Positions 7,171 through 63,142 of a stretch of DNA of 64,000 nt are shown here, piece by piece. The notes below the pieces were generated by a model. The model did no database searches, was not told where the DNA came from, and was given only the letters and a program-made list of their open reading frames with translations. The position numbers and the translations under genes are program-made. The stretch's first letter is position 1. Each line of letters opens with the position of its first letter. Origin of the DNA: Cyclonatronum proteinivorum (GTDB lineage: Bacteria > Bacteroidota > Rhodothermia > Balneolales > Cyclonatronaceae); the NCBI RefSeq assembly GCF_003353065.1, contig NZ_CP027806.1, positions 3,802,501 through 3,866,500 on the forward strand, read 5' to 3'.

Positions 7171-7172
7171 CA

Positions 7173-7844: not shown

Positions 7845-7867
7845 CAGCACGCTGCGCTGAAAATAAT

Positions 7868-7910: not shown

Positions 7911-8094
7911 GATTTCAGCAAAACTTCCCCCTTTGCAATATACACTACACCCTAAAGCCCCGATGCGGAATCAGCATACGTACTTCCGCACCTTTCCGGA
8001 AAGACAGCCTTGCCTGCCCAACCGATTAATTTTACAATAAAAGTTCAAAACACATCCGGCACAGTAGTCCGGATTACAGAGAAAAGGCAACAAC

Positions 8095-9579: not shown

Positions 9580-9655
9580 GGAAAGCGCCACAGCAACGCT
9601 CAGGCTTTTCAACAACAGTTCAAACCAACAATCCGAAATAAAACAACACTGAACG

Positions 9656-39014: not shown

Positions 39015-39665
39015 CTAATCTATCAGATACATTAGCGGGAACAGGAAAATCCATATTATATCCACAAGGTGCCAATACAAACCTGTAATTTCAACCGGGG
39101 TATAATATGAGGAACTGTATGCACCAGCCTTAGCTTTAACGACAAGCCATATCATCAGGCCTATTCCTATAATCACGTGCAAGCCGTGTAATCCTGTCAT
39201 CATGTAATAGATACTGAAGAACACGCCTGCTTTAGGGTGATCTATACCTTCGAATGCGTAAAGACCTCCGGGAAGGATACCTACCTCAAACTTGGCAGTG
39301 TACTCAAAATACTTAATTACGAGAAAGATGGTTGCCAGCACTATCGTTACAAGAAGATAATTCACAATCATCTTTTGATTGTTGGTCTGCGCCGAGCGAA
39401 TCGCAAGTGCACATGTCAGCGAGCTCCCGATAAGTACAACCGTGTTAATTCCGCCCAGTACTGTACTAAGTTCAGTAGCTGCAAGCGTAAATAAGTCGGG
39501 GTTCCATGCGCGATATATAATGTAGGCTACGAAAAGTCCGCCAAAGAACATTACCTCTGTGAAGAGGAATAGCCACATACCCAATTTAGAAGAGCTGAAC
39601 TGTTGGTCAGAGCTTCTGAAATGGTGCTGAACATGTGCGTTTTCTAAACTATGTGCCTGTGCCAT
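39015..39665 (-). CDS. ctaE: Cytochrome c oxidase subunit III
   Basis: A 216-residue subunit III with five predicted helices, the short bacterial form. It has KLGMWLFLFTEVMFFGG near the start, with the conserved glutamate. Further segments are GSSLTCALAIRSAQTNNQ, YMMTGLHGLHVIIG and the terminal TGLYWHLVDIIWIFLFPLMYL. It stabilises proton uptake by subunit I. It lies between ctaD and the subunit IV gene. Confidence 0.94.
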   Translation of the reverse strand: MAQAHSLENAHVQHHFRSSDQQFSSSKLGMWLFLFTEVMFFGGLFVAYIIYRAWNPDLFTLAATELSTVLGGINTVVLIGSSLTCALAIRSAQTNNQKMIVNYLLVTIVLATIFLVIKYFEYTAKFEVGILPGGLYAFEGIDHPKAGVFFSIYYMMTGLHGLHVIIGIGLMIWLVVKAKAGAYSSSYYTPVEITGLYWHLVDIIWIFLFPLMYLID

Positions 39666-39698
39666 TAATTGAAGGATTACCTTTTTGAGTTCTGTTAA

Positions 39699-41426
39699 TT
39701 ATACAGTTTGTGCTGATTCCGATTTTTTCTCTCCGGCATGTTCCTGATGGTATACATCATCGGAAATTCCGAGGGTAAATTCAGATACAGGCTTGTGGTA
39801 GTCATACGCTCCGTTTGTTACAACCGGCTGATAATCGAAGTTGTGCTGTACCGGCGGTGAGGAAGTCATCCAATCCAGCGTACGGGCACCCCATGGGTTA
39901 GCCGGAGCTTTTTCGCCCTTAAGAAGTGAATGCGCCAGATAGATGGCAATGATAACAAATCCGATTCCCAATACATATGAACCGATGGTTGAGAGCTGGT
40001 GCATAGCCTGGAACTGATCGATATAGGAGTAGTACCTGCGGGGCATACCCTGACTTCCCATGATGAACTGTGGCAGGAAGGTAAGATTAAACCCTATAAA
40101 TATAATTACAGCTGATATCTTGCCCCAGAATTCATTATACATTTTACCGGTCATCTTAGGCCACCAGAAATGTAACCCACCAAGGAAAGCCATTACCGTA
40201 CCCCCCATCATCACATAATGAAAGTGGGCTACAACATAATAGGTGTCATGGAGATGCACATTGACTGAAATAGCACCGAGCATGATACCTGTTACCCCAC
40301 CGATCGTGAAGAGAAACAAAAAGATACAGGCATAGAGCATCGGTGTTTTCATGTCTATAGAACCCTTATGCATGGTAGCCAGCCAATTAAAGATTTTAAT
40401 ACCTGTAGGAATACCTACAAAGAAAGTCAGAAATGAAAAGACTACTGTGCTCAGCTCACTTTGCCCGGACACAAACATGTGGTGTCCCCATACAAGCGAC
40501 CCAATAAAAGCAATAGCAAGACTTGACATCGCAATAGCCCAGTATCCGAATACTGTTTTTCTTGAGAATGTACCGATAAGTTCAGAAATAACCCCGAAAG
40601 CCGGAACAATCATAATATATACGGCCGGATGTGAATAGAACCAGAAGAAATGCTGGTACAATACAGGGTCACCCCCCAAGGCCGGATCAAAAATACCGAC
40701 TCCAAGTACGCGCTCCATAATCAGAAGTGCAAGGGTAATCGCCAGTACCGGTGTTGCCAGTACCTGAATAACAGAAGTTGCATACATCGCCCAAATGAAC
40801 AGCGGCAAACGACCCCAGGTCAAGCCGGGTGCTCTCATTTTATGAATGGTCACAATGAAGTTCATACCCGTCAGAATAGACGAGAACCCCATAATAAACA
40901 CACCGAATGTCATCAGTATGACCGCTGAGCCCGTCTGTACAGAATATGGGGTGTAGAACGTCCAGCCTGTGTCAATGGGATTAACAGCAAGAGAAGCCAG
41001 TGTGAAAAGTGCACCAATAGAATAGATCCAGAATGATGCCAGGTTCAGCCTGGGAAATGCTACATCTTTCGCTCCGAGCATAATCGGTAACAGGAAGTTA
41101 CCTAAGGCAGCGGGTATCGAAGGTATAATGAATAAGAATACCATAATCGCACCGTGCAGGGTGAAGATGCGATTGTAGGTTTCTGCATTCATCAGGTTTT
41201 CTGCAGGTGTAAACAACTCTGTACGAAGTACAAGTGCTAAAACACCACCCACAAAAAAGAAAAGGGCAATAGATGCAAGGTACATCAGGCCTATTCTCTT
41301 ATGGTCGACGGTGAACAACCATGATTTAAGACCTGATTCCGCGTTCAGATAATTTTTTGACGGATTTTCGTCAATATCAAAATAGCGGACTTTTAAAGTA
41401 TTTCCGTTTGATGCTGTGGCTGACAT
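39699..41426 (-). CDS. ctaD: Cytochrome c oxidase subunit I, A2-type caa3
   Basis: A 575-residue catalytic subunit binding heme a, heme a3 and CuB. H91 fits the heme a ligand. The CuB histidine and cross-linked tyrosine lie in YSHPAVY (264-270), H315-H316 are the other CuB ligands, and HFH in [12 protein letters not shown] carries heme a3 and heme a ligands. The usual D-channel glutamate of HPEVY is replaced by alanine, and Tyr-Ser precede the histidine. This is the A2-type arrangement described for the Rhodothermus marinus caa3 oxidase. It starts two bases after the subunit II stop. Confidence 0.96.
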
Positions 41427-41428
41427 AA

Positions 41429-42382
41429 TTACTGTAACTCCTTAATAAATTCAACTAAACCAAGAATTTCACGTTCGCTCAGTGTTTGTGCGTAAATAGT
41501 AGGCATATTGTTGGGATAGCCTACATTTACCTGTGCATTTGGGTCTACAATGGCTTGAACAAGGTATTCTTCGTCTGCTATTCTCCGTGTACCATCTGTA
41601 AACTCACGCTCTCTCATGTAAAGTCCGGCCATTGTAGGACCTACACGCGATGAACCATCAATAGAATGACAGCCCTGGCAACCGGCACTTGTAAAGACCA
41701 ATTGACCAAGCTCTGCAAGAGGTAATGCGTCTAAATCCCGGCCAAGTTCATCTTCTGTCCAAGCATCAAACTCTTCCTGTGTCTTGGCTCTTACAATACC
41801 ATTCATCATGGAATGACCGCCCCCGCAATATTCCGTACAAAAGTACACGAATTCACCCGGACGCACAGCTTCAAACCATGCAAAAGTGTACCGGTTTGGA
41901 AGCAAATCTTGTTTAAGACGGAATTGCGGAACAAAGAAAGAGTGTATAACATCCCCATCTCTTGAACGCATGATCAATCGTACAGGCTGTGCTACAGGTA
42001 CCGTAAGCTGATTGGCTTCTCGAATACCGTTTGGATGCTCGAAATTCCAACCGAATGAAAAGCTTTCAACATGCACTTCGTATGCATTAGCCGGTGGCGT
42101 CCGCATTTCAACGTAATCATTAAATCCCCAGAAGAACACAATGAGAATAAGAATGAGGGGGATTACGGTCCAGGTGACTTCAAGAGTAGTGTTGTGTGTT
42201 ATTAATGGTGTTGTGTCTTCCTGAGATTTTCTCCGGTATTTAATGGAGAAATATACAATAGCGATTGTAATTCCTACCAATAGTATGAGGCTTACTATAT
42301 TTATAAAATGAAATAAGCCATCCACATTAGCTGCGTACGTAGACTCAGCTGATGGAAGAAAAAAATTAGTTAAATATTCCAT
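41429..42382 (-). CDS. ctaC: Cytochrome c oxidase subunit II with fused cytochrome c
   Basis: A 317-residue subunit II of the caa3 type. Two membrane helices (about 26-48 and 72-87) lead into a CuA cupredoxin domain with H147, C182, E184, C186 and H190 in [10 protein letters not shown] and a methionine at 193 or 192. A C-terminal cytochrome c domain follows with C235-Q-G-C238-H239 and a probable methionine ligand near NNMPTIYA. The fused heme lets the oxidase take electrons from ACIII through its cytochromes. There is no clear lipobox. It sits between the SCO gene and ctaD. Confidence 0.95.
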
Positions 42383-42396
42383 AATTATATTTGCTG

Positions 42397-43272
42397 TTAA
42401 TCAAAACTAAGACCTGTTGCATCTTTTTTTCTCTCGCGTAACCAAAAGCCACCCAGGAAGATACCTAACCCGAGAAGTATCACTACTCCGCCAACCTTCA
42501 TGATATTCATAGCATAGGGAACATATGAACCCGAGTCAGGATCGAAGGTAAAACAATAAAGTGCAATACGCTCAAGCGTAGAACCTACTCTGCCGCCTGC
42601 CGCATCAAATAATGCATTTCTGACGTCCATTTCCCGGTAAGAAACACCATATAAATAACGGGTGATTCTCATTTCAGGAGAGATGAACATAATTGCAGAC
42701 CCATGCAGAAATTCCTGCGCTTCTTCGCTCCACACAAATGGAATCCCTACAGATTCGGATATAGCATCAATATTTTCCTGCGTACCGGTAAGGAAATGCC
42801 AACCTTCTTCAATACCGGATTTATTCATCCTGTCTGCGTAACCTTGCTTGACTTGAGAAGCAAGCTGATAGTCTTCGTTAGGATCTATACTAATGGTTAC
42901 GATGTCATACTCAACGCCGGGAGTCCATCTCACCTGCTCTACTGCATCGGCAACACCATTTAAAATGAGGCTGCAAATACTGGGACAGCTGAAATAGATG
43001 AGATTGAGGAGTACGGGTCTGTCAGACTCGAAAAACGAGCTTAGTTTAACTTCTTCTCCAAACTCATTAGTAAATACCAAATCCTCCGGAAGGTATTCGC
43101 CTAATTGTTCCTGAATTTGCAACTGCTCCAACAGACGCGCATTGGCTTCTGTGGCCGGATTGGTTGTCTGTGCAAACAATCCGTCAGTTGCAAAAAGAGT
43201 AGTGAATAGTAGAAGTGTTAGTAGCTGTATTTTAACAGAAAAATTCAAACTTGAGTACTGCGGGTTTATCAA
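42397..43272 (-). CDS. SCO1/SenC family copper chaperone
   Basis: A 291-residue thioredoxin-fold copper chaperone for CuA assembly. There is a signal peptide (about 12-34). Copper ligands are C96 and C100 in YFSCPSIC and H190 in EFLHGSAIMFI. A C-terminal membrane helix (about 255-277) with a basic end (RERKKD) anchors it, which is unusual since most SCO proteins are anchored at the N-terminus. Its start overlaps the end of the small upstream gene. It precedes subunit II, its expected client. Confidence 0.92.
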   Translation of the reverse strand: MINPQYSSLNFSVKIQLLTLLLFTTLFATDGLFAQTTNPATEANARLLEQLQIQEQLGEYLPEDLVFTNEFGEEVKLSSFFESDRPVLLNLIYFSCPSICSLILNGVADAVEQVRWTPGVEYDIVTISIDPNEDYQLASQVKQGYADRMNKSGIEEGWHFLTGTQENIDAISESVGIPFVWSEEAQEFLHGSAIMFISPEMRITRYLYGVSYREMDVRNALFDAAGGRVGSTLERIALYCFTFDPDSGSYVPYAMNIMKVGGVVILLGLGIFLGGFWLRERKKDATGLSFD

Positions 43273-43637
43273 TTATTGTTGCGTTGGTTTATTAAAATAG
43301 TTTTTGCGCTATCAACCGGGATTCTAAAAATCCCGGCTTCTTCATCAACCACTTCAAGCGTAGTCAAATGTCTTGCTGATTGCTCTCTGTGCTCATTCAA
43401 TACGGGATACTCCGTATTGATAGCTTGTTGGAATTGTGTGTCAAACTTCCAGAACTTGTAGAGATTAAAAGCAATTGCTATCAGGATTACCACGACAATA
43501 GAGGTTGCAACAGTCCACAACACAATTCGGGACATACTAAGTTCATCAGCCATCACGCCATCATTGATTGACGTTTGGGCGTCTGGATCACTCAGCTCAA
43601 AGTATTCCTTATCAGAATTATTTTTATCTATCTGCAT
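43269..43637 (-). CDS. Uncharacterised single-helix membrane protein in the ACIII-cox operon
   Basis: A 122-residue protein without a recognised family. It has an acidic N-terminus (about 1-35), one membrane helix (about 38-60) and a periplasmic tail that ends at RIPVDSAKTILINQRNNN. It overlaps the SCO start by four bases and follows actF by 14, so it is firmly in the operon. Similar small proteins lie at this position in other ACIII-caa3 clusters, by memory of family context. It could be an accessory subunit or assembly factor. Confidence 0.72.
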   Translation of the reverse strand: MQIDKNNSDKEYFELSDPDAQTSINDGVMADELSMSRIVLWTVATSIVVVILIAIAFNLYKFWKFDTQFQQAINTEYPVLNEHREQSARHLTTLEVVDEEAGIFRIPVDSAKTILINQRNNN

Positions 43638-43651
43638 GTCAGTAAACGAAT

Positions 43652-44836
43652 TCAGTGTTTGTTGAGTGATTCAATGAGCTTGGGATCGTTTTTAGGGACC
43701 ATGCTCTGTTGTTTAAAGTAGAAGAAAAATAAACCTAAAAAGATACCGGCAAGAGCAAGAAATGTAGCGAGGTCGAGCCAGTGGAATGCAAAGGTATCGT
43801 GCAGTGAAGGCATAATGAGCCAGTATAACTCAACGACATGACTTATTACAATAAAGACAGCCATGGTCTTCAGCACTGTGAAATTACCCTTGGCAGGTTT
43901 GGAGAGTAAAACTATGAAGGGAATTACAAACCGGCCAAAAATCACCGCATAGAAGATATATTGCCAGTTCCCTTCTAATCTGTAGAAGAAGAAAAGCGTA
44001 GCTTCAGGAATGTTTGCGTAATAAATAAGGAAAAACTGACCAAATGCTATGTAAGCGTAGAAAACTGTAAAGGCAAATAACCAGGCTCCCAAGTCTCTGA
44101 TATGAGCTTTATTAATCGTGTTGAGCAAAAGTCCGTTATTCCGCAAATAAAAAATTACAAGCAACAGAATAGCGAATATAGCCTGAAACGACATAGCGAA
44201 ATAATACACGCCAAACATGGTAGAGAACCAGTCAAAACGCAGCGACATAATCCAGTCGAAAGAGGCAAAAGCTACTGTGAAACCAAAGAAGAAAATGCCC
44301 GGAGCGCTGATTTTTCTGAGCGTCGTATCAATGCCCCAATCGCCGGTCTGATCCATCTTTATGGAGTTCTGATACAGCTTGTATCCCAGAAAAGCCCAAA
44401 TGGCAAAGTAAATGATGTTACGCGCAACGAAAAACGGAATATTCAGATACGGTGATTTATACTCTCTTAATCCTTCATAAAACGGATGGTATTGTTCCTG
44501 TGTCCATGGGAAAAGGGTTGTCATCCCAATAAGAATAGGAATAAAAAGGAGCCCAAAAACCCACAAATATGAAGAAAATGTCTCCGGAATTCTTCTAAGC
44601 GTAGTACCCCAGCTTGATCTTGTAATATGATGTATCATAACAAGAAACAGAGAGCCGAGTGAGATACTAATAAAGAAGGTAAAGCTCGTGAGGTAGGAGT
44701 GCAGAAATTGCTCAAAGTTTACCACAACGCCAACGAGACTTGCTATTATCCCTACAACCCCGATTGCTATAATAATACGTGAAGGATTTGCACTTTCGGG
44801 AAATTCAATACTGTCAGTAAGCTTTGTATGTGCCAT
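43652..44836 (-). CDS. actF: ACIII subunit ActF (quinol:cytochrome c oxidoreductase membrane protein)
   Basis: A 394-residue polytopic protein with about ten membrane helices. Segments such as SYLWVFGLLFIPILIG, AFASFDWIMSLRFDWFSTMFGVYY and LGAWLFAFTVFYAYIAFGQF match ActF, a divergent NrfD-like subunit of alternative complex III. It probably contributes to the quinol-facing membrane core and proton pathway together with ActC. It follows actE after 21 bases. Confidence 0.93.
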   Translation of the reverse strand: MAHTKLTDSIEFPESANPSRIIIAIGVVGIIASLVGVVVNFEQFLHSYLTSFTFFISISLGSLFLVMIHHITRSSWGTTLRRIPETFSSYLWVFGLLFIPILIGMTTLFPWTQEQYHPFYEGLREYKSPYLNIPFFVARNIIYFAIWAFLGYKLYQNSIKMDQTGDWGIDTTLRKISAPGIFFFGFTVAFASFDWIMSLRFDWFSTMFGVYYFAMSFQAIFAILLLVIFYLRNNGLLLNTINKAHIRDLGAWLFAFTVFYAYIAFGQFFLIYYANIPEATLFFFYRLEGNWQYIFYAVIFGRFVIPFIVLLSKPAKGNFTVLKTMAVFIVISHVVELYWLIMPSLHDTFAFHWLDLATFLALAGIFLGLFFFYFKQQSMVPKNDPKLIESLNKH

Positions 44837-44857
44837 TATATAATTACTGAGTCGTGA

Positions 44858-45517
44858 TTAATTTTGTGTAGCAAGATCGGAAGTCGGGTCATACAATCCG
44901 AAATCACCTGCTGTCAAACCAATAGAATTTACTTCTTCTTCTGTAGCTGCCTGACTGATCTGAAGCGCTCTGATATATGCAACAATAGCCCAGCGGTCTT
45001 CAGCTCTTGGAACAATTCTTCTGAAGGTCGGCATACTTCCTGCGCCATTGTAAATAGCGCTATATATTCCGCCATCAACCATTTCAAGAAGCCTGTCTTC
45101 ATGGAATGATGGTGGTGGCACATATCCTCTTTCAATTACCAAACCATTACCCAAACCGGAAATACCGTGGCATGGACTACAGGTAATTTCATACTGTGCG
45201 CGCCCGCGGTTCAGTAATTCACGGGTTATTTCTACCGGGATAAAATCTACCTGTGAGCCATCTGCATTTACACCCTGATACATGGCAAGGTCCTGACGAA
45301 GATGTCCGCGCGCAATTGTACCTTCAACAGGTACACGCATAGCTCTGCGGTCTTCGAAAAAGTCGTTAGGCTCAAATGCCTTGAATTTTTGCTGCCAGTA
45401 CATGTTTTGCTGAGGCTGTATTTGCGTTTTCTCGCTTGGCATACCCTGACAGGACGCTAATACGAGTACCGCAATAAAGAGCATCAGAAGATATTTGCCT
45501 TTTGAAATTGAAATCAT
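44858..45517 (-). CDS. actE: ACIII subunit ActE (monoheme cytochrome c)
   Basis: A 219-residue lipoprotein cytochrome. The signal peptide ends in a lipobox VLASC (cysteine about 23). The heme motif CSPCH lies in YEITCSPCHGISGLGNG (about 111-127) and a methionine ligand is likely in AGSMPTFR. It transfers electrons from ActA to the oxidase side. It lies between actD and actF. Confidence 0.93.
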   Translation of the reverse strand: MISISKGKYLLMLFIAVLVLASCQGMPSEKTQIQPQQNMYWQQKFKAFEPNDFFEDRRAMRVPVEGTIARGHLRQDLAMYQGVNADGSQVDFIPVEITRELLNRGRAQYEITCSPCHGISGLGNGLVIERGYVPPPSFHEDRLLEMVDGGIYSAIYNGAGSMPTFRRIVPRAEDRWAIVAYIRALQISQAATEEEVNSIGLTAGDFGLYDPTSDLATQN

Positions 45518-45532
45518 TTTAGGGTGCTCCTC

Positions 45533-46090
45533 CTATTCGTAGATATTTTCAATGTGTGACGCACCTGTTGATTCCAGGAACTTATAGGTTTCTTCCTCAG
45601 AATACATACCATCTTCAGTTTCAATTGTAATGAAAAACTTGTCATCCGTTACCCTGTTGAATGTTTCGGAGTTGAACAGGGAATTGTGATGCTTCGGAAG
45701 GTTATTGAGAAACAACATGCCAAATACAGCTGCAAAGGCAGACAACAGAATCGTCAGCTCAAAGGTGACTGGCACAAAAGCCGGAAGATTAACAAATGGT
45801 CGCCCACCAATATTTATGGGATAGGCAATTGACGCTGCCCAAACCTGTAAGGCGATACCACCGGAAAATCCAACGAGCGCATGGCTCAGTACTATCCAGC
45901 CTAATTTTGATTCTTTCAGACCCATTGCATCATCCATCCCGTGGATAGGGAAGGGACTGTGTGCATCAAACTTGGTATAACCGGCCCGGTTTACCAGCTT
46001 TGCAGCTTTCATCAGCTTGGCCGGATTGTCATATTCAGCCAGAACAGCAAATGTCTTTTTCTCTGTGTTTTCGGATACTATAGTGCTCAT
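45533..46090 (-). CDS. actD: ACIII subunit ActD (DUF3341)
   Basis: A 185-residue membrane protein. A cytoplasmic N-terminal domain (about 1-60, FAVLAEYDNPAKLMKAAKLV and YTKFDAHSPFPIHGMDDAM) precedes two helices (about 66-90 and 105-130). This is the DUF3341 architecture of ActD. It is 11 bases from actC upstream and 15 from actE downstream. Confidence 0.93.
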   Translation of the reverse strand: MSTIVSENTEKKTFAVLAEYDNPAKLMKAAKLVNRAGYTKFDAHSPFPIHGMDDAMGLKESKLGWIVLSHALVGFSGGIALQVWAASIAYPINIGGRPFVNLPAFVPVTFELTILLSAFAAVFGMLFLNNLPKHHNSLFNSETFNRVTDDKFFITIETEDGMYSEEETYKFLESTGASHIENIYE

Positions 46091-46101
46091 CTTTAGCTGG
46101 C

Positions 46102-47517
46102 TTATGCGTTAGAATCGTTAGCTTTTTCCTTGACGGGTTCATTGCCGTCTTCGTCATAATAGTGCGGATCAGCCTGTGGCATTACCATTTTAACCTCAGC
46201 AATGGCTACCATCGGCAGGAATCGCAGGAAGAGCAGGAAGTTGCTGAAGAATAAACCGAAAGTCCCAACATAGGTTAAAACGTCAACCCAGGTCGGAGAA
46301 TAATAGGCCCAGGAACCCGGTAGAAAGTCTTGTGCCAGGGAAGTTACGGTAATCACAAACCGTTCAAACCACATCCCGATGTTCACAACTATTGAGAGTA
46401 TGAATGATACTGTAATGCTTCTTCTCATTTTCTTGAACCAAAAGAAATTAGGTGCAATAACATTACAACTCATCATAATCCAATAGGCCCAGGCGTAGGG
46501 CCCGACAGCCCTGTTAACGAAGGCAAATTTTTCGTATTCGACCCCCGAGTACCATGCTATGAAGAACTCCATGATGTAGGCAAAACCAACCATCCAGCCT
46601 GTTACGAGAATAATGATATTCATCTTCTCTATATGGTCGATGGTCATAATATCTTCAAGCCCATATATCTTCCGCGCAATGATCATGAGTGTCATTACCA
46701 TTGCAAAGCCCGAGAAAATTGCACCCGCTACGAAGTAGGGTGGGAAAATAGTCGTGTGCCATCCGGGGATGATCGATACGGCAAAGTCAAAAGATACAAT
46801 AGTGTGTACAGAGAGTACGAGTGGCGTGGCGATACCAGCCAGAATCATGTAGGCCTTCTCGTAATGCTGCCATTGTCTGTTACCACCTGTCCAGCCGAGT
46901 GCAAAAATACCGTACAGCTTTGCAGCAAGCTTACTTTTTACGCGGTCTCTGAGAGTTGCAAGATCCGGAATCAATCCCACGTACCAGAATAAAAGTGATA
47001 CCGTAAAGTAAGTCGATACAGCGAACACGTCCCAAAGCAGCGGGCTGTTGAAGTTTGGCCACATTTGCATCTGATTCGGAAGCGGAAATACCCAGTAAAT
47101 TACCCAGATTCGACCGACGTGTACGGCTGGGAATATACCCGCACACATTACCGCGAAAATGGTCATGGCTTCTGCAAACCTGTTAATTGCAGTACGCCAA
47201 CCCTGTCTGAAAAGGTAAAGTACAGCACTGATCAGCGTCCCGGCGTGACCGATACCGACCCACCATACGAAGTTGATAATCGCCCAGCCCCAGGCTACGG
47301 TATTGTTCAGACCCCAGACGCCGGTACCTTCCCAAATGAGATAGGCCAGCATAAGGAAAAGCAAACCCAGCAAAAGGTTTGATATCCCGAAGGCGATGTA
47401 CCACCAAAATGGGGTGGGTTTTTCAACAATGTCGGCTACCAGTGCCGTGATGCTACTGAAGGTATGGTTCCCCTGCACGAGAGGAGCTTCTTTTACATAA
47501 CCACTATTACTGCTCAT
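46102..47517 (-). CDS. actC: ACIII subunit ActC (NrfD-like integral membrane subunit)
   Basis: A 471-residue NrfD/PsrC-like protein with about ten helices. Landmarks are [34 protein letters not shown], with a conserved histidine, and [26 protein letters not shown]. It forms the main quinol oxidation site with ActB. It lies 38 bases after actB. Confidence 0.95.
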
Positions 47518-47555
47518 GTATGACTGCTTTGAATTGTAGTTCTTGGTTGCAGGGC

Positions 47556-50500
47556 TTACGCCAGCTCATTATTTACATTTCTGAGTTTGGCCAGGTATGA
47601 GGTTCGTGGCCTGATGTTGATTTCTTCCAGCATCACGTAGTTTCTGTCGTTGCGTTTAGTCCGTGATATAATGCTGTTATCGTCAGTTAAGTCACCAAAA
47701 GTAATCGCCTGTGAAGGACATGCCTGCTGACAAGCTGTTTTAACTGTACCGTCAGCCGGTTTAATCGAGTTACCGGTAGCATTCTTGGTTGCGATCTTGG
47801 CTCTGTTGATACGTTGCACACAATAGGTACACTTCTCCATCACCCCTCTGAAACGAACAGATACATCCGGGTTCATTGCCATCTGAATAATATCCGGATC
47901 ATCATCCATTTCGAGCCAGTTTTTAGCATAGTTGAAGAAGCTAAAACGTCTGACTTTGAACGGACAGTTGTTTGAACAGTAACGCGTACCAATACACTGA
48001 TTATAGGTCATCTGATTCAGACCGTCATCACTGTGGGTTGTTGCTGCAACCGGACAAACCATTTCGCAGGGCGCCTGCTCGCAGTGCATACAGGGGATGG
48101 GCTGATGAATAACCTGCGGGTCTTCCTGATCACCTGAGAAATAGCGGTCAATCCGTATCCAGTGCATCTCCCGATTGCGAACAACTTCACGTTTTCCAAT
48201 AACCGGGATGTTATTCTCGGCCTGACAAGCAATGGTACAAACACCGCATCCTGTACAGGCGTTAAGATCTATCGCCATGCCCCATTGCGGCTGATGGCTC
48301 GGGAAAATCTGATCGTTAAACAGGTTAACCGGATGTCCGTCTTCCTCACGACGCCCTGGCACATATACCTTGTCGGCAGCGATTCGCGGATCTTCCTTAT
48401 ACTCTTCTAAAGTTGCCTCACGCGCCAGTGGACGCCCTTCCATCGAATGGTGATTTTGGGTACACGCAATCGGGAAATTTCTGCGGGCTACTTCCATCGA
48501 GACAGATTCAGCCGCGACCAGTGAGGCCGTGGTAAACCCTACATAGGCATTGTGACCAATATCATCCGCTACCCGGCCGACAGAAGTTCTGCCGTAACCA
48601 ACATTAATGGTGATACTGTTGTCTGCATGTCCGGGCAGAATCCATGCCGGCATTTGGAAGGTTGTTCCATTTACCGTGATGTTAAGAAGATCATAATCCG
48701 TTTCCCCGAACTTACGCTCACGGACACCAAAACGGCTTGCCGTAGCCGGGCTCATCGCGGCGACGTTATCCCACGTAATCTTGGTGATAGGATCCGGAAG
48801 CTCCTGAAGCCAGCCGTTGTTAGCATAGCGACCGTCAAATAATTTGCGGTCTGGTTTCAGCACCATTTCGATACGATCAGGATCTGTTACGCTGATGTCC
48901 TGAAGCATACTCTGCATCGCAGTACCAAAGCCTGAGGTCAGAGAAGCTGTTGCAGCCTGGAAACGGGTGCCGCTGTAAATGCCATCATGGATGGTTTTTT
49001 CCCAGTTCGTCTGAAAATCAGTAGGGAATACTGACTGCCATGTTTCCCGAACAATGTCGAAACACTCCCGGCTTTCGCCATGCAATATTGCGCTTAAAAA
49101 CTCAGTCTCACACTTACTTCCAAACAGCGGCTGAATGGTGGGCTGAATTACGGAAAGATGACCTCTGTAATCAGCTACATCTCCCCAGTATTCCAGGTAG
49201 TGTGCGCGCGGTACGTGCCAGGTGGCTTTTGACGATGTTTCATCAACATGATTCGACAAATGGATGGTTGTATCAACCTGATCCATCAGGGAAGCGAAAT
49301 CTATTGAAGAAGGCGCGTTAAACACAGGATTGCCCCCAACAAGTACAACCGTATCTACCTGACCATTTTGTACGGCTTCAGCTACGCGTGCGAGTGCGTC
49401 GGGATCATAAGAGCTGTCATGGTAAGGCACCTGAACGTATTCAACTGTTTCACCGGAATTACCAAGGGCGGTGTTTATGGCAGCGACCATTGCGTGTACC
49501 GCTACACTGTTCTGTTCACCAGCGGCGATGATTGATTTGCCGCGATTTGCCAACAGCTCCTGAGCCAGCACGCTTACCCACATGTGCTGACTAAATTCAT
49601 TGCTCACACCACTTAGTGCAGAAAGGCCATTAACTGATTCTGAGAGTTTGCTTCCCAGGGCAGCAACAAATGCAGGTAAATCGCCTGCTTTTAGTCTCAG
49701 GCGGTGATCAGCGTTTGAGCCGGTTACGCTCAGATCATTTTCGACAACATAAAGACGGTTCATTGAGTCTTCTGAGGATTCAACCCGCCGACGGTTGGCA
49801 TAATCGAGGTTGCAGCGCACCATATCGGGTGCAAGACCCATGAAATCAAAATCCAGCGAAACAACCACATCGGCATTTGCGAAGTGATAAACCGGACGAA
49901 GTTTGCGACCGAATGCTGTTTCAGTACCGGCTAAAACATTATGTGGACCAAAAGGCTCATAGGTTGCCCACATCGCGTTAGGGAAGGTACTGAGAAGCTC
50001 TGATTTCAGTCTGTTTACAGAGGGCGAGCCGCTTGCTTCACTTACAAATGCGATTCCTCTGTTTCTGATGGAAAAATGATCTGCACAGAATGATGTAAAT
50101 GCTTCCCAATCAGACCTTTCACCGTTATTTCGCACAAAGCGGGAGCGGTCAGGATCATAGAGATCAAGAATAGAAGACTGCTGGAAAATATTGGTTGCAC
50201 CTTTACTGGAATCATGATCCGGATTCCCTTCTACTTTTGTTGGTCTTCCTTCATTTGTTGTTAAAAGAACACCAACACCGTAGTCCTGAAACGGCACTGC
50301 AGAAGCATATTCGAGCGGGATTCCACCAACAATTTCTTCGGGCTGCTTGTGATAGGGCAACAGCTTCTGAACAGGCTTACGGCATGCAGCAAATCCTGCA
50401 AGTGCAACGGAAGCACCCATGATTTGCAGAAAGTTCTTTCTGGAGTACCCGTCCCGGAGCTCACTTGCTCCTTCTGGAAATTCACGGCTTACATATTCTT

Positions 50501-50567
50501 TATAGGCTTCATTCTGAGAGAGTTCCTGCAGACTGCGCCAATACGTTTTTTGCTTAGTACTTGACAT
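47556..50567 (-). CDS. actB: ACIII subunit ActB (molybdopterin-like domain plus Fe-S domain)
   Basis: A 1003-residue periplasmic subunit. The N-terminal region has a Tat-like segment without a full twin-arginine ([18 protein letters not shown]) and a cysteine that could be lipidated. Residues about 60-720 resemble the molybdopterin oxidoreductase fold, which lacks the cofactor in known ACIII. The C-terminal part (about 740-960) carries four ferredoxin-like cysteine motifs: [38 protein letters not shown] with CTYCVQRI, and CQQACP. These hold three [4Fe-4S] and one [3Fe-4S] clusters in the structures of the family. It follows actA after 33 bases. Confidence 0.95.
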
Positions 50568-50600
50568 TCCGGATAATTAAGCTTTTTAGAAAGTTAGGCC

Positions 50601-51248
50601 TTAGCGATGGCACGCGTTACAGTAAATTGGCGGAGCGATATTCTTCTTCGAAATCACCATCTGTGCAAACTCAAAATGGTTCTCTTCGGGCTCCCAGGCC
50701 ATATTTGTTACTTCTTCTACAGGTCTCAGATAGGGAGCCGGGTTGTTATGGCAATCAAGACACCATCCCATACTCAGCGGCTCAGCCTGCATAACAACTT
50801 CCATTCTGTCAACCCTCCCATGGCAAGTTGCACAGCCCACACCCACATTCACGTGAGCGCTGTGGTTGAAATATGCAAATCCAGCCAATTTGTGGATGTG
50901 AACCCATTCAACCGGATTACCCGTATCCCAGCTGTCACGCAGGGGCTGTAGTTTTTCACTGTCAGTAGCTATCTGCACATGACAGGTCATACAGGTTTCT
51001 GTTGAAGGGATACCAGCACGTGCCGACTCCCAAACAGATGTATGACAGAACTGACAGTCAATACCCAGTTCAGATACATGCAGTCTGTGGCTGTAGTCGA
51101 TAGGCTGTACAGGTGCATAGCCAACTTGCGTAAACTTCGGAGAACCCCAGTACCAGAACCCGAAAATAACTGCAAGGAGTAGCAAATTAACAGATAATAA
51201 AAGCCTTTTAGGGACCTTATTGGACCACTTCGGAAAAAGTTGCGCCAT
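50601..51248 (-). CDS. actA: ACIII subunit ActA (pentaheme cytochrome c)
   Basis: A 215-residue membrane-anchored cytochrome with one helix (about 15-34) and five CxxCH motifs: 65-69, 86-90, 139-143, 163-167 and 210-214. Five hemes are the count expected of ActA, which collects electrons from ActB. It is the first gene of the superoperon. The C-terminal arginine comes directly after the last heme motif. Confidence 0.95.
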   Translation of the reverse strand: MAQLFPKWSNKVPKRLLLSVNLLLLAVIFGFWYWGSPKFTQVGYAPVQPIDYSHRLHVSELGIDCQFCHTSVWESARAGIPSTETCMTCHVQIATDSEKLQPLRDSWDTGNPVEWVHIHKLAGFAYFNHSAHVNVGVGCATCHGRVDRMEVVMQAEPLSMGWCLDCHNNPAPYLRPVEEVTNMAWEPEENHFEFAQMVISKKNIAPPIYCNACHR

Positions 51249-58332: not shown

Positions 58333-58385
58333 AAAAAAAGAAAGCCCGTCGGAAGACCTTTGTTGCAAGGATTCCGGCGGGCTTT
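58333..58385 (-). terminator. Rho-independent terminator of the Omp28-like operon
   Basis: aaagcccgtcgga (58341-58353) pairs with tccggcgggcttt (58373-58385) apart from one G-U pair; the loop carries a small cctt/aagg stem. On the minus strand a T-rich run (58333-58340) follows. Confidence 0.78.
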
Positions 58386-58452: not shown

Positions 58453-60105
58453 TTACTTCACGAGGGTCATTAGTCGGGTGAAGCTTTGTCCGGCCGTTTC
58501 GAGGCGGTAGATGTAGGTACCGCTTGACAGGGCCGCAGCGTCGAAGCTGAGGGTGTGTGTGCCTGCGCTGTAGGTTCCGTCAGCCAGAACTGCTACCCGG
58601 CGGCCTTCCAGTGTGAATACGCTGAGATTTATCTCAGCTGTTTCGGGCAGCTCGAAGGAGATGTTGGTGACCGGGTTGAACGGGTTGGGGTAGTTCTGAT
58701 TGAGTGATATTACGCGCGGCAAATCCGTCTCTGGTCCGGTAGAGGTCGGGGTTGGGGTACTGAAGGTGAAAGCCTCGGACCATACGCCTGACCCGCCAAT
58801 GTTTACCCCACGAACGCGCCAGTAGTAGGTTGTGGCTTCTTCGAGCCCTGATATGGTTGTGTTCAGCTGCGTGATGCCTGTACGGCTCACGACCGGATTG
58901 CTGAATGCGCTGTTTTCGGCAACTTCCACATCGTAGCTTGCAGCTGACTCAACCGCTGCCCATTGCAGGGTGATAAACTGCGAGGTAACTTCTGTGCCGT
59001 TGGAAGGCTGCAGGAGGGTAGGTTCTGTAGCCGGGGCAGCCATGATGGTCGTAAATGATGAAACGGAGGACCAGTCGCCAACAAGACCTTCATTGCTGTT
59101 GATGCCGCGCACACGCCAGAAATAGGTTGTTTCCGGAACGAGCTCTGATACCACTACAGAGGTGCCGCTGAGTCCGTCGAATTCAACTGCGTTGTTCTGG
59201 AAATCCTGTGAAGCGGAGACCTGAATATCGTAGGTTGTTGCGGCAGAGGCAGCCGACCAGGAGAACGAAAGGTCAGTGAAGGAGACGTTTTCCGCATCAT
59301 TAGCGGGCTCCATCAGGGTGGGTACGCCAACGACGAGCTCGCTAAGCACGGGAACCATAGCAGATTGCAGAACGGCACGGCTTGGGCTGTTGGTTGTTGG
59401 CTGTACAAATGCGACAACCTTGAGGTTATCAGTATCCCAGCTCTCGTTCAGATCGTGGTTGTACGAGACAGTCACTGTTTGACCTGCTGTGAGCTCAACG
59501 GGCACGCCCACGGCACCGTTAATCATATCACGATGTACAAAATCCTGGTTTGTGGAGCCGTTAGGTCCGTTGTAGGCAATGTTGCGCTCAACAATAGCCA
59601 ATCGCAGGGAGAGTCCCTGAGCGGGCCAGTCCGCACCGGGGAGGCGGGTCATGTTTACCGTAACATCAACACTACCGTTGTTCAGAACCGCTACCATACT
59701 CATATCCATAGGTGCCGCAACGGATACGCGATTCTGAATGGCGTTCCGCCAGCTTGTCCATGTGCTGCCAAGCGGCGTACCGTCAACCACCCCGGTTGGG
59801 GCGGCATTCGCACCGTAAAAGGAAACACGCGGGTTTACAGGGGTTGGATTCTGATGATAGAAAATACAACCACTGCCGGGCCACCAAACGGGATACTTGA
59901 TCACACTTACGCGGTCAGCGTGTTCGAAATTACTAAGCCAGTTGTCAAAACCTACCGCGGCAGGTAAACAGGGCGGACAGGTTGTTGAGGTAAAAATCTC
60001 GACCATTACATGACGGTTGTCATTGGCCTGAGCCTGCTGCGACAGTACAGCTGTAAAAAACAGCGTAAGGGCAGCAACAATCAGAATTGTAGAGAGCTTC
60101 TTCAT
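58453..60105 (-). CDS. Omp28-like surface protein with FnIII domains and T9SS sorting tail
   Basis: A 550-residue exported protein. A signal peptide covers residues 1-27. The first 260 residues resemble Omp28-related proteins and include a thioredoxin-like C43-P-P-C46 motif in EIFTSTTCPPCLPAAVGFDNW. Two fibronectin type III repeats follow, each with a Y-F/Y-W-R-V-R-G strand (about 275-355 and 365-445). The last 80 residues are a type A sorting domain (NYPNPFNPVTNISFELP, then SAGTHTLSFDAAALSSGTYIYRL), so the type IX system should export it to the cell surface. It is the last gene of a three-gene run. Confidence 0.87.
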   Translation of the reverse strand: MKKLSTILIVAALTLFFTAVLSQQAQANDNRHVMVEIFTSTTCPPCLPAAVGFDNWLSNFEHADRVSVIKYPVWWPGSGCIFYHQNPTPVNPRVSFYGANAAPTGVVDGTPLGSTWTSWRNAIQNRVSVAAPMDMSMVAVLNNGSVDVTVNMTRLPGADWPAQGLSLRLAIVERNIAYNGPNGSTNQDFVHRDMINGAVGVPVELTAGQTVTVSYNHDLNESWDTDNLKVVAFVQPTTNSPSRAVLQSAMVPVLSELVVGVPTLMEPANDAENVSFTDLSFSWSAASAATTYDIQVSASQDFQNNAVEFDGLSGTSVVVSELVPETTYFWRVRGINSNEGLVGDWSSVSSFTTIMAAPATEPTLLQPSNGTEVTSQFITLQWAAVESAASYDVEVAENSAFSNPVVSRTGITQLNTTISGLEEATTYYWRVRGVNIGGSGVWSEAFTFSTPTPTSTGPETDLPRVISLNQNYPNPFNPVTNISFELPETAEINLSVFTLEGRRVAVLADGTYSAGTHTLSFDAAALSSGTYIYRLETAGQSFTRLMTLVK

Positions 60106-60211
60106 AGGATTGCTGTGGTTTGTTGTTAGGGAGATGGTACCGCAGGGGCGACAGCACCGCAGGTGAACATAAGGAAAGGTTGTTTGGAGGCAGGATAATC
60201 TTAAGATAAAA

Positions 60212-61864
60212 TCAGAATGAGCTGATCAGGCTGAGCCGCATGCCCGTGAAAGCGTTGACGAAGCGGCACACACCGTTGGTGCATACGAAACCGCCTCGCT
60301 CTCTGCCGTAACTTGCCATCACCGTGTGGGTGTTGCCAATGCGCCAGGAGCCCTCGGCCGTGTACCAGAATTTTTCTCCGCTGGGATCGAATTCGCTGGT
60401 GGTTGTTTCAATCCGGCCCCCGAAAGAGAAATCAGGGGAACGCGCAATCTGCAGGGAGAGCATTTGGCTGTAGTAGTCGCTGTCGTCGCCATATTGCGTG
60501 TCGCGCACGAACTGATGCTCAGAAATTACTTTCACACTCCATCGCGGCGAAAAGGCATACTGCGCGTCGATTGCGAAGGTGTTGGCGAATACCCGCTGAC
60601 TGAATTCCGGAGCGAGTGCCTGATAAAACAAGCGGTTGCGGTGATTATAGGCGACCTTCACATACGACATAAAATCCGGGAAGAGGTATTCGATGTGTCC
60701 GTAGTATTCCCAGTAAGGATCACGGGCATCGGCGCGGCCCGGCAGCCAGGTCGGACCTTCTTCTTTTTTGAAGAATTCAAAATCTTCTTCATCCCACAGC
60801 CAGCTGTTGTGCAGCGAAGCCATCGCAATACTGCTGTTTAGGGTGATGTTGTAGGTTGGGGAATAAAAGGCTTCGAGGAAAAAGCCTACTTCATCTTCAA
60901 AATTAACAAGGTGCGGGTCGCGCGTCATCAGACTGTAGGAGTGTTCTTTGTGCGCAATGGGCGGACTTTGAAACGGGCTCATGCGGGTATTGCGAAGCGG
61001 GTCGCCGGCACGCGCAAACGGATCAACCTCATCATACCTGTAGTTCTTGTATTCAAAGGTAACGCCATAGCCGGGTCCGCTATGATTTACCGCAGCGTAA
61101 AAACCTCCACCGGTTGTGCTTGTGGTATCGGCAAAATCAATGAGCCGGAGGGTTCTGTAGTTGTAGCCCGCTGTCACCCGTGCGAAGGGGAACCTGAAGC
61201 TGACGTACCCTTCGGGTATAAAAATTTCTGCCTGATCAGGTTCTTCAGAAAACAGGGACGGCATAGTACCATCAGCATAGGTATAAGATCCGCCTATGCG
61301 AAGCCGCTGCTGCGGACGAAGCTCAAGCGCTGCAGAGCGGAGCCGGTAGTTTTCCTCCCGGATACCACCGGGATCGTCGAAGGTGAGATGTTCAAGGTAG
61401 TTGATAGTACCCGCGAGTGCTTTCACCCGAAACAAGTCGTGTTCGTAAGTGGCGCGTATCCCGTCGAGGCTGGTATCATACCGGATTACGCGGTCTTCGA
61501 AAAGATTCAGCGACATACCGCGGTTGTGGAGTGCGAATAAATCGCCGATTCGCACATCGAGGCCATCCCGCTGATAACCTATGAAACGGCGCCTGATACC
61601 AGAGAAATCGGGTCCGTATTCTGCCGGATCGCTTAGTTCAAGCCGAAAGCCGATGATCACATTATCCGCTAAAATGCGCACATCCGTGAAGTTCTCTAAG
61701 TATTCCTTTTCGGCTTTGTCCATACCGAGGTTCTGGACTTCTTCGCCGAAACCGTAATTGACGATATTATTTACCGAGACCTGAACCTGCTGTGCCTGCG
61801 TAAAGGTAACTGTGTAAAGTGTAATGAGAAGTACAGAGCAAATGACCCGCCGTAACTGATTCAT
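60212..61864 (-). CDS. DUF6029-like beta-barrel outer membrane protein
   Basis: A protein of about 550 residues starting at MNQLRRVICS (61864); an in-frame ATG at 61906 adds 14 residues before the signal peptide and is less likely. After a signal peptide (VLLITLYTVTFTQA) come alternating amphipathic strands to the end, finishing in a terminal phenylalanine (LSLISSF), which is typical of outer membrane barrels. It resembles the DUF6029 group. Its N-terminal strand reads NIVNYGFGEEVQNLG. It lies between the TlpA-like and Omp28-like genes. Confidence 0.72.
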   Translation of the reverse strand: MNQLRRVICSVLLITLYTVTFTQAQQVQVSVNNIVNYGFGEEVQNLGMDKAEKEYLENFTDVRILADNVIIGFRLELSDPAEYGPDFSGIRRRFIGYQRDGLDVRIGDLFALHNRGMSLNLFEDRVIRYDTSLDGIRATYEHDLFRVKALAGTINYLEHLTFDDPGGIREENYRLRSAALELRPQQRLRIGGSYTYADGTMPSLFSEEPDQAEIFIPEGYVSFRFPFARVTAGYNYRTLRLIDFADTTSTTGGGFYAAVNHSGPGYGVTFEYKNYRYDEVDPFARAGDPLRNTRMSPFQSPPIAHKEHSYSLMTRDPHLVNFEDEVGFFLEAFYSPTYNITLNSSIAMASLHNSWLWDEEDFEFFKKEEGPTWLPGRADARDPYWEYYGHIEYLFPDFMSYVKVAYNHRNRLFYQALAPEFSQRVFANTFAIDAQYAFSPRWSVKVISEHQFVRDTQYGDDSDYYSQMLSLQIARSPDFSFGGRIETTTSEFDPSGEKFWYTAEGSWRIGNTHTVMASYGRERGGFVCTNGVCRFVNAFTGMRLSLISSF

Positions 61865-61966
61865 CAATAAAGGTGATAATCTTTGAAAGTGAAATGAGAA
61901 AAGCACCCCGCCCCTGAAGCATGCAGGGGCAGCTTTTTGTAAAGTGCCGTTTGGAGTGGATGGATG

Positions 61967-62512
61967 TTACTCAGCCGCTATAAGCTGCTGAACCAGGTCT
62001 TCGATTTTGCGCTCGTCACCGGGCAGGAATCCGGAATCAACCTGAACAATGGTGCCATCCTGCGCTACCATAAGCGCATAGGGCAGGCTTCTGCCGTTGA
62101 GACGCTCGAACACCTGCGCGCTCGGATCGAGCAAAAGTGGCATGTCGTAGCGCTGACTCCGCCAGTACGACTCAACCCGCGACAGGCTGTTTGGGGTATC
62201 TGTATTGATGACAAGAAGGGTGAAGCCTGCTTCACGGTAGGCATCCCAAATCGGCCTGAGGGTACGCAGTTTGTGCAGACACGGCTGACACCACATGGCA
62301 AAGAAACTGATGTAAACCGGACCTTTATCCAAATACTGCTGTAAACTATGGCGATTACCATCAAGATCTTCCAAGGTAAAGTTTACAATTGTATCAGACT
62401 GTGCATACACCTGTTGCGAAGGAGCCGTAATGGCAAGCAGGCAAACCGTACAAGCCACTAAAAATAAACTGTATAATAGATTGATTTTATTGGTTTTGCT
62501 TACCTGTTCCAT
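61967..62512 (-). CDS. TlpA-like thiol-disulfide oxidoreductase
   Basis: A 181-residue thioredoxin-fold protein. A signal peptide (about 11-37) sends it to the periplasm. The active site is C75-Q-P-C78 in FAMWCQPCLHKLRTL, followed by LPYALMVAQDGTIV with the conserved cis-proline region. TlpA/ResA-type proteins reduce disulfides during cytochrome c or protein maturation. It heads the run that continues with the DUF6029-like and Omp28-like genes. Confidence 0.9.
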   Translation of the reverse strand: MEQVSKTNKINLLYSLFLVACTVCLLAITAPSQQVYAQSDTIVNFTLEDLDGNRHSLQQYLDKGPVYISFFAMWCQPCLHKLRTLRPIWDAYREAGFTLLVINTDTPNSLSRVESYWRSQRYDMPLLLDPSAQVFERLNGRSLPYALMVAQDGTIVQVDSGFLPGDERKIEDLVQQLIAAE

Positions 62513-62803
62513 GTATTGAGAAATTTTCTAAAAGGGTTGGTAGGAATCATAAATCACGTATTCAATGAATTAACAACTTCATTTAATTAAATCCAAACCC
62601 TTTAAAGGCTTATCCGCATCCTTCTGCTTACATTCTTTGGCGTCATCTCTTTCAGGGCTTTAAAAGCGGTTTTTATATTTTTCCTGATGTCGCAATGGTG
62701 ACTGCCCGGCCTGCCCGATATGTAAAAACGGCGAACGATTTCCGGCATCATATTTATTGAGATGAGCTGAGCCATCCAACCTTTGATTCTAATTGCCCGC
62801 CCC

Positions 62804-63142
62804 ATGCAAACGCAGCAACTGCTTAACCGTCCGATTTTTTTTCTGGAACCCGCCCTCATTTTTCATCTTATGGACGCCAATGCCGTCATTCGTCTGAGCC
62901 CGGGAAGCAGCGAAGATACCCCAAAAGCGGAAATGCTGCCCGAGAAGACCAAAGCGGGTGAATCCTGCGCATCTTATGATCAGGACGGCATCCGTATTTA
63001 TGTATCTGAAAAGCTAAAACTGCCCCCGGCTGCGCAGGTTTCCATCATGCTTAAAAAAGGATGGTTCAGCAAATCTGCCGAAGCCCGCATCGTACCCCGT
63101 CAGCGGGCAACCGGATTTATGGGAACAAAAGTAAGCACCTGA
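62804..63142 (+). CDS. Small hypothetical protein
   Basis: A 112-residue reading frame starting MQTQQLLNRPIFFLE (an ATG at 62783 adds seven residues). I do not recognise it. It contains GIRIYVSEKLKLPPAAQVSIMLKKGWF, seen as a likely beta-alpha unit, and a basic tail. Codon choice resembles neighbouring genes, which favours this strand over the shorter opposite frame at 62602-62859. It lies between the TlpA-like gene and the histidine kinase. Confidence 0.5.
   Translation: MQTQQLLNRPIFFLEPALIFHLMDANAVIRLSPGSSEDTPKAEMLPEKTKAGESCASYDQDGIRIYVSEKLKLPPAAQVSIMLKKGWFSKSAEARIVPRQRATGFMGTKVST

Follow-up and report, generated by a model that had tools for sequence, protein, structure and literature searches.

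The locus described here raises the question of whether thiol reducing power can be carried to the surface of a bacterium through its outer membrane. To our knowledge, no system with this ability is known. For the surface thioredoxins of Bacteroidota, such as HBP35, a cluster of three genes in Cyclonatronum proteinivorum offers a candidate chain with three cysteine pairs. This triad, which recurs in hundreds of genomes of Bacteroidota, looks like an undescribed system that passes thiol reducing power to the surface; no description of it as a system was found in the literature searched, the coverage of which was partial. In the same partially covered literature, DUF6029, the family of the central barrel, is named by a single paper.

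The Gene Run

The window is the whole stretch of DNA analysed, 64,000 nt of Cyclonatronum proteinivorum NZ_CP027806.1 (GCF_003353065.1), positions 3,802,501-3,866,500, and the run occupies window positions 58453-62512. It consists of three ORFs on the minus strand, in the order TlpA-like protein, DUF6029 barrel, and Omp28/T9SS protein. All three genes placed here by an earlier note on this DNA were confirmed, with a refined start for the barrel, which is likely the ATG at 61864 (60212-61864, 550 aa) and not that of a longer GTG ORF. The features are the following:

61967..62512, minus strand: TlpA/ResA-like thiol-disulfide oxidoreductase, 181 aa, with signal peptide; matches to AhpC-TSA/Redoxin and ResA-type models
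62279..62293, minus strand: WCQPC active site, residues 74-78 of the TlpA-like protein; W74, C75, P77, C78, and P144 without variation among the 39 cluster TlpAs
61908..61932, minus strand: terminator-like hairpin with a weak T tract between the TlpA and barrel genes; without counterpart in three same-genus relatives
60212..61864, minus strand: DUF6029 outer-membrane beta-barrel, 550 aa; PF19494 E=3e-40; 24 strands in the predicted model
60266..60283, minus strand: C528-T-N-G-V-C533, the C-x4-C pair of the barrel, placed by the model in the final extracellular loop; 41/41 loci, counting the frameshifted end of L042
58453..60105, minus strand: predicted Omp28/HBP35-like surface thioredoxin, 550 aa; thioredoxin domain, beta-sandwich, two FN3 repeats, and T9SS type A sorting domain
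59968..59979, minus strand: CPPC active site, residues 43-46 of the Omp28 protein; no variation at its two Cys and at one Pro across 59 aligned partners
58474..58692, minus strand: T9SS type A C-terminal sorting domain, residues 472-544 of the Omp28 protein; TIGR04183 39.8 bits, cut-off 23
58333..58385, minus strand: intrinsic terminator closing the run, predicted from its fold; the Omp28 genes of L051, L055, and L057 followed by a similar stem and T run

The closure of the run by a terminator, also claimed beforehand, holds at its downstream end, where the terminator of the Omp28 gene is strong and a comparable one is present in 3/3 same-genus relatives. An extra hairpin (61932-61908) lies between the first and second genes. 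It could split the TlpA/barrel transcript in this genome, in which a single transcript of the run is putative. No Rfam families were found in the window.

Linkage and Co-Inheritance

Conservation of the neighbourhood was surveyed with HMMs in 148 genomes, comprising 41 DUF6029 loci and 107 DUF6029-negative genomes, whose counts share ancestry and are not phylogenetically independent. A WCxPC TlpA gene adjoins the DUF6029 gene in 39 of the 41 HMM-found loci, on the same strand in 36 and with 4-base overlaps in many pairs; an adjacent WCxPC gene is absent at L038 and L053. The background is given by 297 more distant genes of the same fetched loci, none of which carries WCxPC. A second CxxC protein, either a lipoprotein or a T9SS cargo, belongs to the barrel run in 38/41 loci (directly downstream in 34, upstream in 4), and the remaining three genomes encode an Omp28 with CxxC elsewhere. 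In a scan of GTDB species genomes, at least 590 stretches encode a DUF6029 barrel, and among the matches listed are, for example, Hymenobacter, Fluviicola, and Crocinitomicaceae. The full triad is present in 74 of the 80 kept loci with record titles. The rarity of the three families together, considered in the earlier note, is refuted by these triads and by the TlpA adjacency, and the same two counts with the 0/297 background rule out chance neighbours.

The families are also lost together. Omp28 scores above its cut-off in 27 genomes, all DUF6029-positive, and in 0/107 of the negatives. Within family f2, 12/12 barrel-positive genomes encode the partner lipoprotein (E <= 1e-85) and 7/7 barrel-negative ones lack it, a co-loss that includes two within-genus losses. 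DsbD was detected in all 148 genomes, barrel-negative ones included (DsbD_TM in the window's genome, G000), and because of this it is uninformative as a discriminating partner.

The Predicted Periplasmic Oxidoreductase

The TlpA-like protein carries a signal peptide, read from its sequence, which predicts a periplasmic location; together with the WCQPC motif, this fits the periplasmic CQPC oxidoreductase previously proposed. It resembles ResA by a profile match of 4e-31, and its redoxin-type thioredoxin fold is thus assigned by profile and not by a model. WC.PC and P144, the probable cis-Pro, are invariant across the aligned cluster TlpAs, which also share a conserved GYxPGDE-like tail. The closest solved chain is 2m72. 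Proteins of the ResA/TlpA type act as reductants and are themselves supplied by CcdA/DsbD.

The Outer-Membrane Barrel

PF19494 (DUF6029) matches the barrel over residues 12-550 (138.7 bits, gathering cut-off 27), spanning model positions 9-538 of 538. Structure prediction, suggested in the earlier note, gave a confident AlphaFold2 monomer of 24 strands, with a mean pLDDT of 90.1 and a pTM of 0.84. By the strand order of this model, C528 and C533 are placed in extracellular loop 12, the last one. They are the two most conserved columns of the barrel apart from Met1 and, outside the signal peptide, its sole conserved cysteines. With the frameshifted end of L042 included, the C-x4-C pair is retained in all 41 HMM-found loci. 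This conserved pair had been missed by the earlier note. Good conservation is likewise seen in extracellular loops 3 and 7. The best solved folds for the barrel are the FimD/PapC usher barrels (Z 18.4), and MtrB of the porin-cytochrome conduit gives Z 14.4 over 366 residues. FimD/PapC ushers pass folded domains.

A disulfide between C528 and C533, lying in an outer loop, may have a structural role and no other. The barrel might be a transporter or export channel, with the TlpA-like protein and the surface thioredoxin as its dedicated folding catalysts and no electrons crossing the membrane; during assembly, the TlpA-like protein would isomerise or reduce the C528/C533 disulfide in the way that DsbC acts on LptD. 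The single conserved pair and the tight coupling of the TlpA and barrel genes fit this explanation, as do loops 3 and 7, whose conservation is expected of a plugged channel. However, two cysteines with 4 residues between them in a single hairpin offer no intrachain mispairing, and a dedicated isomerase would therefore hardly be needed. A surface-located third thioredoxin, lost together with the barrel, is left unexplained. We consider this explanation unlikely.

Alternatively, the barrel could be a channel for metal, haem, or polysaccharide, the thiol proteins acting on the ligand, for example by keeping copper or iron reduced, and C-x4-C binding metal. HBP35 is a hemin-binding protein required for growth without hemin (PMC2907840), and barrels similar to DUF6029 have been described beside polysaccharide export proteins (PMC9603273). 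Nevertheless, the hemin site lies outside the thioredoxin motif (PMC2907840), and no constant neighbours with a metal-handling or polysaccharide role were seen in the loci. Around the loop, the Cys pair provides the only invariant potential ligands, no other invariant ligand residue having been found in the aligned barrels. Such a ligand channel is the least probable of the explanations weighed here.

The Surface Partner

The third protein was previously taken as a T9SS-exported protein with its own CPPC, and both parts are upheld, the first by its TIGR04183 match and the second by CPPC at residues 43-46, where the window has Cys codons at the two active-site positions. By sequence it is a T9SS type A cargo, and SprA is encoded in the window's genome. 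PF11551 (Omp28) matches it with 59.5 bits against a gathering cut-off of 34.9, and it falls below the curated cut-offs of NF033782 (49.9 of 150 bits) and NF045500 (35.6 of 200 bits). An Omp28-related selenoprotein relative exists by name (NF045500); no convincing selenocysteine partner behind an in-frame TGA was detected among all fetched loci. The monomer model (pLDDT 90.9) consists of a thioredoxin domain and a beta-sandwich, which with the T9SS sorting domain make up the HBP35-type architecture. A lack of conservation of this CxxC, the other refutation named in the earlier note, was rejected: of 29 Omp28 homologues picked without regard to Cys, 28 have CxxC. Its two cysteines and one Pro (probably the cis-Pro) do not vary among the aligned partners.

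The partner type varies, being a lipoprotein without sorting domain in many lineages and a T9SS cargo in many others. This bears on disulfide quality control of T9SS cargo, the second purpose offered by the earlier note, in which the surface thioredoxin would be a protein disulfide isomerase whose activity the barrel and the TlpA-like protein maintain; it is compatible with a relay and differs in purpose. All 41 barrel-positive genomes encode SprA, and many partners are themselves T9SS cargo. Conversely, 76 SprA-positive genomes are without barrel, from which it follows that the T9SS does not need it. T9SS was accordingly rejected as the reason for the association, as the barrel occurs only alongside SprA, yet most SprA genomes are without it. 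Because many genomes have a lipoprotein partner without T9SS tail and the barrel is missing from most genomes with a T9SS, quality control is weakened as the core function, for which it appears doubtful, and may be a downstream use; no candidate cargo was identified.

Partners of family f2 carry CPHC, as does the active site of DsbA in E. coli. This DsbA dipeptide is compatible with an oxidising role and counts against a reducing direction. A relay may run inward, the oxygen-exposed surface thioredoxin oxidising the barrel pair and then the TlpA-like protein, with disulfide-forming power or the sensing of the outside redox state as its purpose. Besides the CPHC motif, the repair of E. coli dsbA mutant defects by HBP35, recounted in PMC2907840, speaks for this direction. 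On the other hand, the TlpA-like protein is ResA-like, a reductant type, and DsbD is present in every genome tested, though equally in barrel-free ones. Overall, an inward relay seems distinctly improbable.

The Proposed Relay

The Cys pair in each protein, the gene linkage, the co-loss, the predicted folds and topology, the presence of DsbD, and the T9SS signal of the partner point to one trans-outer-membrane thiol-disulfide exchange system, DsbD → TlpA → barrel → surface thioredoxin, to which we assign a probability of roughly 55%. Electrons of cytoplasmic thioredoxin would enter the periplasm via DsbD and reduce WCQPC of the TlpA-like protein. This protein would in turn reduce the C528/C533 disulfide, which lies on a hairpin at the outer side of the barrel, and to do so would probably enter or plug the wide lumen from below; the structure models are monomers, in which C528/C533 may or may not be within reach of the periplasm. 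The barrel pair would then reduce CPPC of the surface thioredoxin, which may act on surface disulfides or oxidised residues and perhaps on T9SS cargo too.

The redox relay from periplasm to surface envisaged in the earlier note thus gains strong comparative support from the triad, the co-loss, and the cysteines of each protein, and it agrees with the outer-side barrel pair of the model and with the measured thioredoxin activity of HBP35. From these we infer contact among the three proteins and electron transfer, whose outward direction and final substrates are likewise proposals. In a more specific form, tentatively put forward at somewhat less than even odds, a TlpA docked inside the 24-stranded barrel reduces the outer-loop disulfide, which reduces the surface thioredoxin; such a thioredoxin conduit would be the reductant so far missing for the HBP35/Omp28-type surface thioredoxins of Bacteroidota. 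The relay, if true, would give DUF6029 a function and extend bacterial redox biology by a step at the outer membrane.

Comparison with Known Systems

Two candidates were set aside. The OPX-associated polysaccharide export barrel is 18-stranded, whereas the model has 24 strands, and no OPX or polysaccharide neighbours recur. ExtI of the Geobacter Ext porin cluster was excluded because it has one cysteine only and no thioredoxin partner.

HBP35 (PG0616) of Porphyromonas gingivalis is like the partner in having a thioredoxin domain followed by a beta-sandwich, a T9SS tail, and a cell-surface location. It is the nearest solved relative of the partner model (225 residues aligned, Z 26.1, rmsd 2.6, 14% identical). 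In the excerpted text of PMC2907840, its insulin reduction depends on C48/C51, and what its thioredoxin domain does physiologically is left open, with no reductant named. The partner is also a member, above the Pfam cut-off, of the Omp28 family (PF11551, NF033782; structure 2r2c), although the Pfam model covers the sandwich domain alone, without the N-terminal thioredoxin part, and the window partner differs from Omp28 lipoproteins by its added FN3 repeats and T9SS tail. At the P. gingivalis locus, we take PG_2174 to be the barrel and PG_2175 (structure 2m72) to be the TlpA. PG_2174 has been reported as an uncharacterised vesicle protein (PMC4335976) and PG2173 as an outer-membrane Omp28 lipoprotein (PMC9722745).

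ResA, TlpA, and StoA share fold and WCxPC with the window TlpA. The window protein is a cluster-specific form, tied to an outer-membrane barrel and not to cytochrome c maturation. Electrons of Etrx1/Etrx2 in Streptococcus pneumoniae come directly from CcdA. These are surface thioredoxin-fold lipoproteins with MsrAB as redox partner (PMC3914529); both they and the triad provide surface thioredoxins, but Etrx has no outer membrane to cross. In the T9SS and gliding machinery, SprF/PorG and GldK are disulfide-linked outer-membrane proteins (PMC12635249). SprF/PorG resembles the barrel as a Bacteroidota outer-membrane protein with a conserved Cys pair and a disulfide-exchange role (PMC12635249), but its pair lies in a periplasmic C-tail and links covalently to the track, whereas that of the barrel is modelled in the last outer loop.

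A similar architecture, by analogy, is that of MtrCAB, with a periplasmic carrier, a large barrel, and a surface acceptor. The MtrCAB barrel has 26 strands, compared with 24 in the DUF6029 model. Haems serve there and thiols here: the triad includes no multihaem protein, its three proteins contain no CxxCH haem motif, and common descent is not supported. If the conduit proposed above is true, the triad would be a counterpart of MtrCAB that is haem-free and based on thiols.

Organization of the cluster

The cluster consists of three genes in one strand orientation, and the placing given for them in the earlier note proved right when the ORFs were checked in the window:

61967-62512, minus strand: TlpA/ResA-like protein with a WCQPC motif
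60212-61864, minus strand: DUF6029 barrel (PF19494, E=3e-40, full-length match), most likely starting at ATG 61864
58453-60105, minus strand: Omp28 domain, two FN3 repeats and a T9SS type A sorting domain, with CPPC close to the N terminus

The terminator previously reported after the third gene is strong (58385-58333), and a comparable one lies 3′ of the same gene in three same-genus relatives. A second terminator-like hairpin, weaker than the first, lies between the TlpA and barrel genes and is absent in these relatives. Divergent from the TlpA gene, a small plus-strand ORF of 119 aa occupies 62783-63142. It may be a real gene, because ORFs of similar size (109-112 aa) are found at the same place in two of the relatives (L051 and L057).

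Other genes in the window

The minus-strand genes at 39015-51248 comprise, from translations only, an alternative complex III-like set in ActABCDEF order, then a Sco-like protein and caa3-type oxidase subunits. The arrangement resembles the ACIII-oxidase supercomplex that is usual in this group. At 2027-10120 (plus strand), a heavy-metal P-type ATPase, a fused CcoN-CcoO-like oxidase subunit of 727 aa, CcoP, CcoG and FixH-like genes are read, likewise by translation, as a putative cbb3 oxidase cluster in which two subunits are fused. A RodZ-like protein of 441 aa with a long QS-repeat low-complexity linker is encoded at 22677-24002, plus strand.

Conservation of the neighbourhood

The cluster is real and conserved. 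DUF6029 was found by HMM search in 41 of 148 sampled genomes from the GTDB phylum of the window, and about 7 kb on either side of each match was fetched, contig permitting. A WCxPC TlpA gene adjoins the barrel in 39 of these 41 loci (36 on the same strand, 3 divergent; a CxxC gene lies between the two in two of the 39), and a four-base overlap of both genes is common. WCxPC occurs in none of the 297 genes farther off in these loci. The second CxxC protein is directly downstream in 34 loci and upstream, in the same run, in 4 more; in the other 3 genomes, a CxxC-bearing Omp28 is encoded outside the locus. GTDB species genomes were also scanned, with a pattern that contained the barrel Cys motif, so that only the HMM-found set is unbiased for the barrel cysteines; this gave at least 590 confirmed barrel stretches. 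The full triad is present in 74 of the 80 loci kept; the remaining six comprise three cut short by a contig end, two where one member is missing and one where both are. The earlier note had proposed neighbourhood conservation as a check, and these counts bear it out.

Records titled Euryarchaeota and Polynucleobacter (L084, L138) contain typical Bacteroidota clusters; these titles are probably bin misassignments.

Co-inheritance and partner exchange

Of the 148 genomes, 27 have an Omp28 above the cut-off; all 27 are DUF6029-positive, and none of the 107 negatives has one. Because the genomes are related, such co-inheritance counts are not independent trials. In family f2, from the window's order, Omp28 does not serve as the partner; its place is usually taken by two CPHC proteins of the redoxin fold, a lipoprotein and a protein with a T9SS tail. 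All 12 barrel-positive f2 genomes have the lipoprotein and all 7 barrel-negative ones lack it, among them two cases of loss within a genus (g2 and g5). These within-genus losses, and the use of a different thioredoxin-fold protein as partner, speak for an association that reflects function rather than inherited linkage.

Loci L046-L050 (families f15 and f33) mostly have at least one Omp28/HBP35-like CxxC protein upstream of or beside TlpA and the barrel, so a single barrel may work with more than one surface thioredoxin. In several of the loci L074-L085, mostly Flavobacteriales, the third gene encodes a WCGPCW protein of ~490 aa instead; another type of thioredoxin seems to have replaced the surface partner there.

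Cysteine pairs of the barrel and the partner

The earlier account left out the barrel's own cysteine pair. In 41 aligned barrels, C528 and C533 (window numbering) are the only conserved cysteines outside signal peptides and, Met1 excepted, the two most conserved columns, within the motif C-x-x-G-[IV]-C-[RY]. The sole apparent exception (locus L042) is a frameshifted ORF with the same motif in its missing end. The AlphaFold2 model (mean pLDDT 90.1, pTM 0.84) has 24 strands, and its even connections are taken as periplasmic turns because they are short (2-6 residues), whereas most odd ones are longer. Both ends of an outer-membrane barrel are, as a general rule, periplasmic. By this rule and strand order, the pair is predicted to lie within extracellular loop 12, on a small hairpin; the loop carrying it is the most conserved inter-strand segment.

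Among solved structures, the usher barrels FimD (Z 18.4, rmsd 4.4, 371 residues) and PapC, through which folded domains pass, are nearest in fold. A match was also obtained with MtrB, the barrel of the Mtr porin-cytochrome complex (Z 14.4, rmsd 4.6, 366 residues). A common fold is no proof of function; the modelled size would leave room for a thioredoxin domain.

The 59 aligned surface partners all keep both cysteines and one proline, which is probably the cis-Pro. Conservation of the Omp28 CxxC, on which the earlier proposal depended, holds: it is present in 28 of 29 homologues picked regardless of cysteines, and the 29th, near a contig end, has TCEPC in its gene as seen in locus L053. The model of residues 20-262 (pLDDT 90.9) shows a thioredoxin fold followed by a beta-sandwich, with CPPC at the start of the first thioredoxin-fold helix. 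Of all solved structures, it matches HBP35 of P. gingivalis best (Z 26.1, rmsd 2.6, 225 residues). HBP35 is delivered to the surface via its C-terminal domain and outperforms E. coli thioredoxin in insulin reduction, for which C48 and C51 are required; what its thioredoxin domain is for is not known, according to the authors (PMC2907840).

Proposed redox relay

Each triad member has a strictly conserved, redox-capable Cys pair, expected in the periplasm, on the outer side of the outer membrane and at the cell surface, respectively. The simplest account is that thiol-disulfide exchange would run from TlpA through the barrel pair to the surface thioredoxin. The relay from periplasm to surface in the earlier note stays the best explanation and is strengthened by the barrel pair; electron transfer itself is what we infer. 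A periplasmic source of reductant is available, since DsbD_TM is found in the window genome and every sampled genome. Outward reduction is favoured because TlpA is of the ResA type; a relay in the opposite direction is a live alternative, with which the CPHC motifs of the f2 partners are compatible. The weakest step is the access of TlpA to a pair on the far side. Given the width of the barrel and the conservation of loops 3, 7 and 12, we suggest that TlpA may enter the lumen, where these loops could form a gate or plug.

Comparison with known systems

The earlier note knew of no description of such a system, and our literature search likewise found none for the triad, which is undescribed as far as could be found. 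Among the papers searched, DUF6029 appeared only in PMC9603273, where it is named for its resemblance in fold to barrels close to polysaccharide export proteins. In Streptococcus pneumoniae, where no outer membrane intervenes, thioredoxin lipoproteins work at the surface (PMC3914529). SprF and PorG, Bacteroidota outer-membrane proteins of gliding and the T9SS, have recently been described as carrying reactive Cys pairs (PMC12635249); there the cysteines lie on the periplasmic side and form a structural link, whereas C528/C533 are predicted on the outer side. The architecture is similar to that of MtrCAB, with thiols replacing haems; the triad contains no cytochrome, and the likeness is one of arrangement, with no descent claimed.
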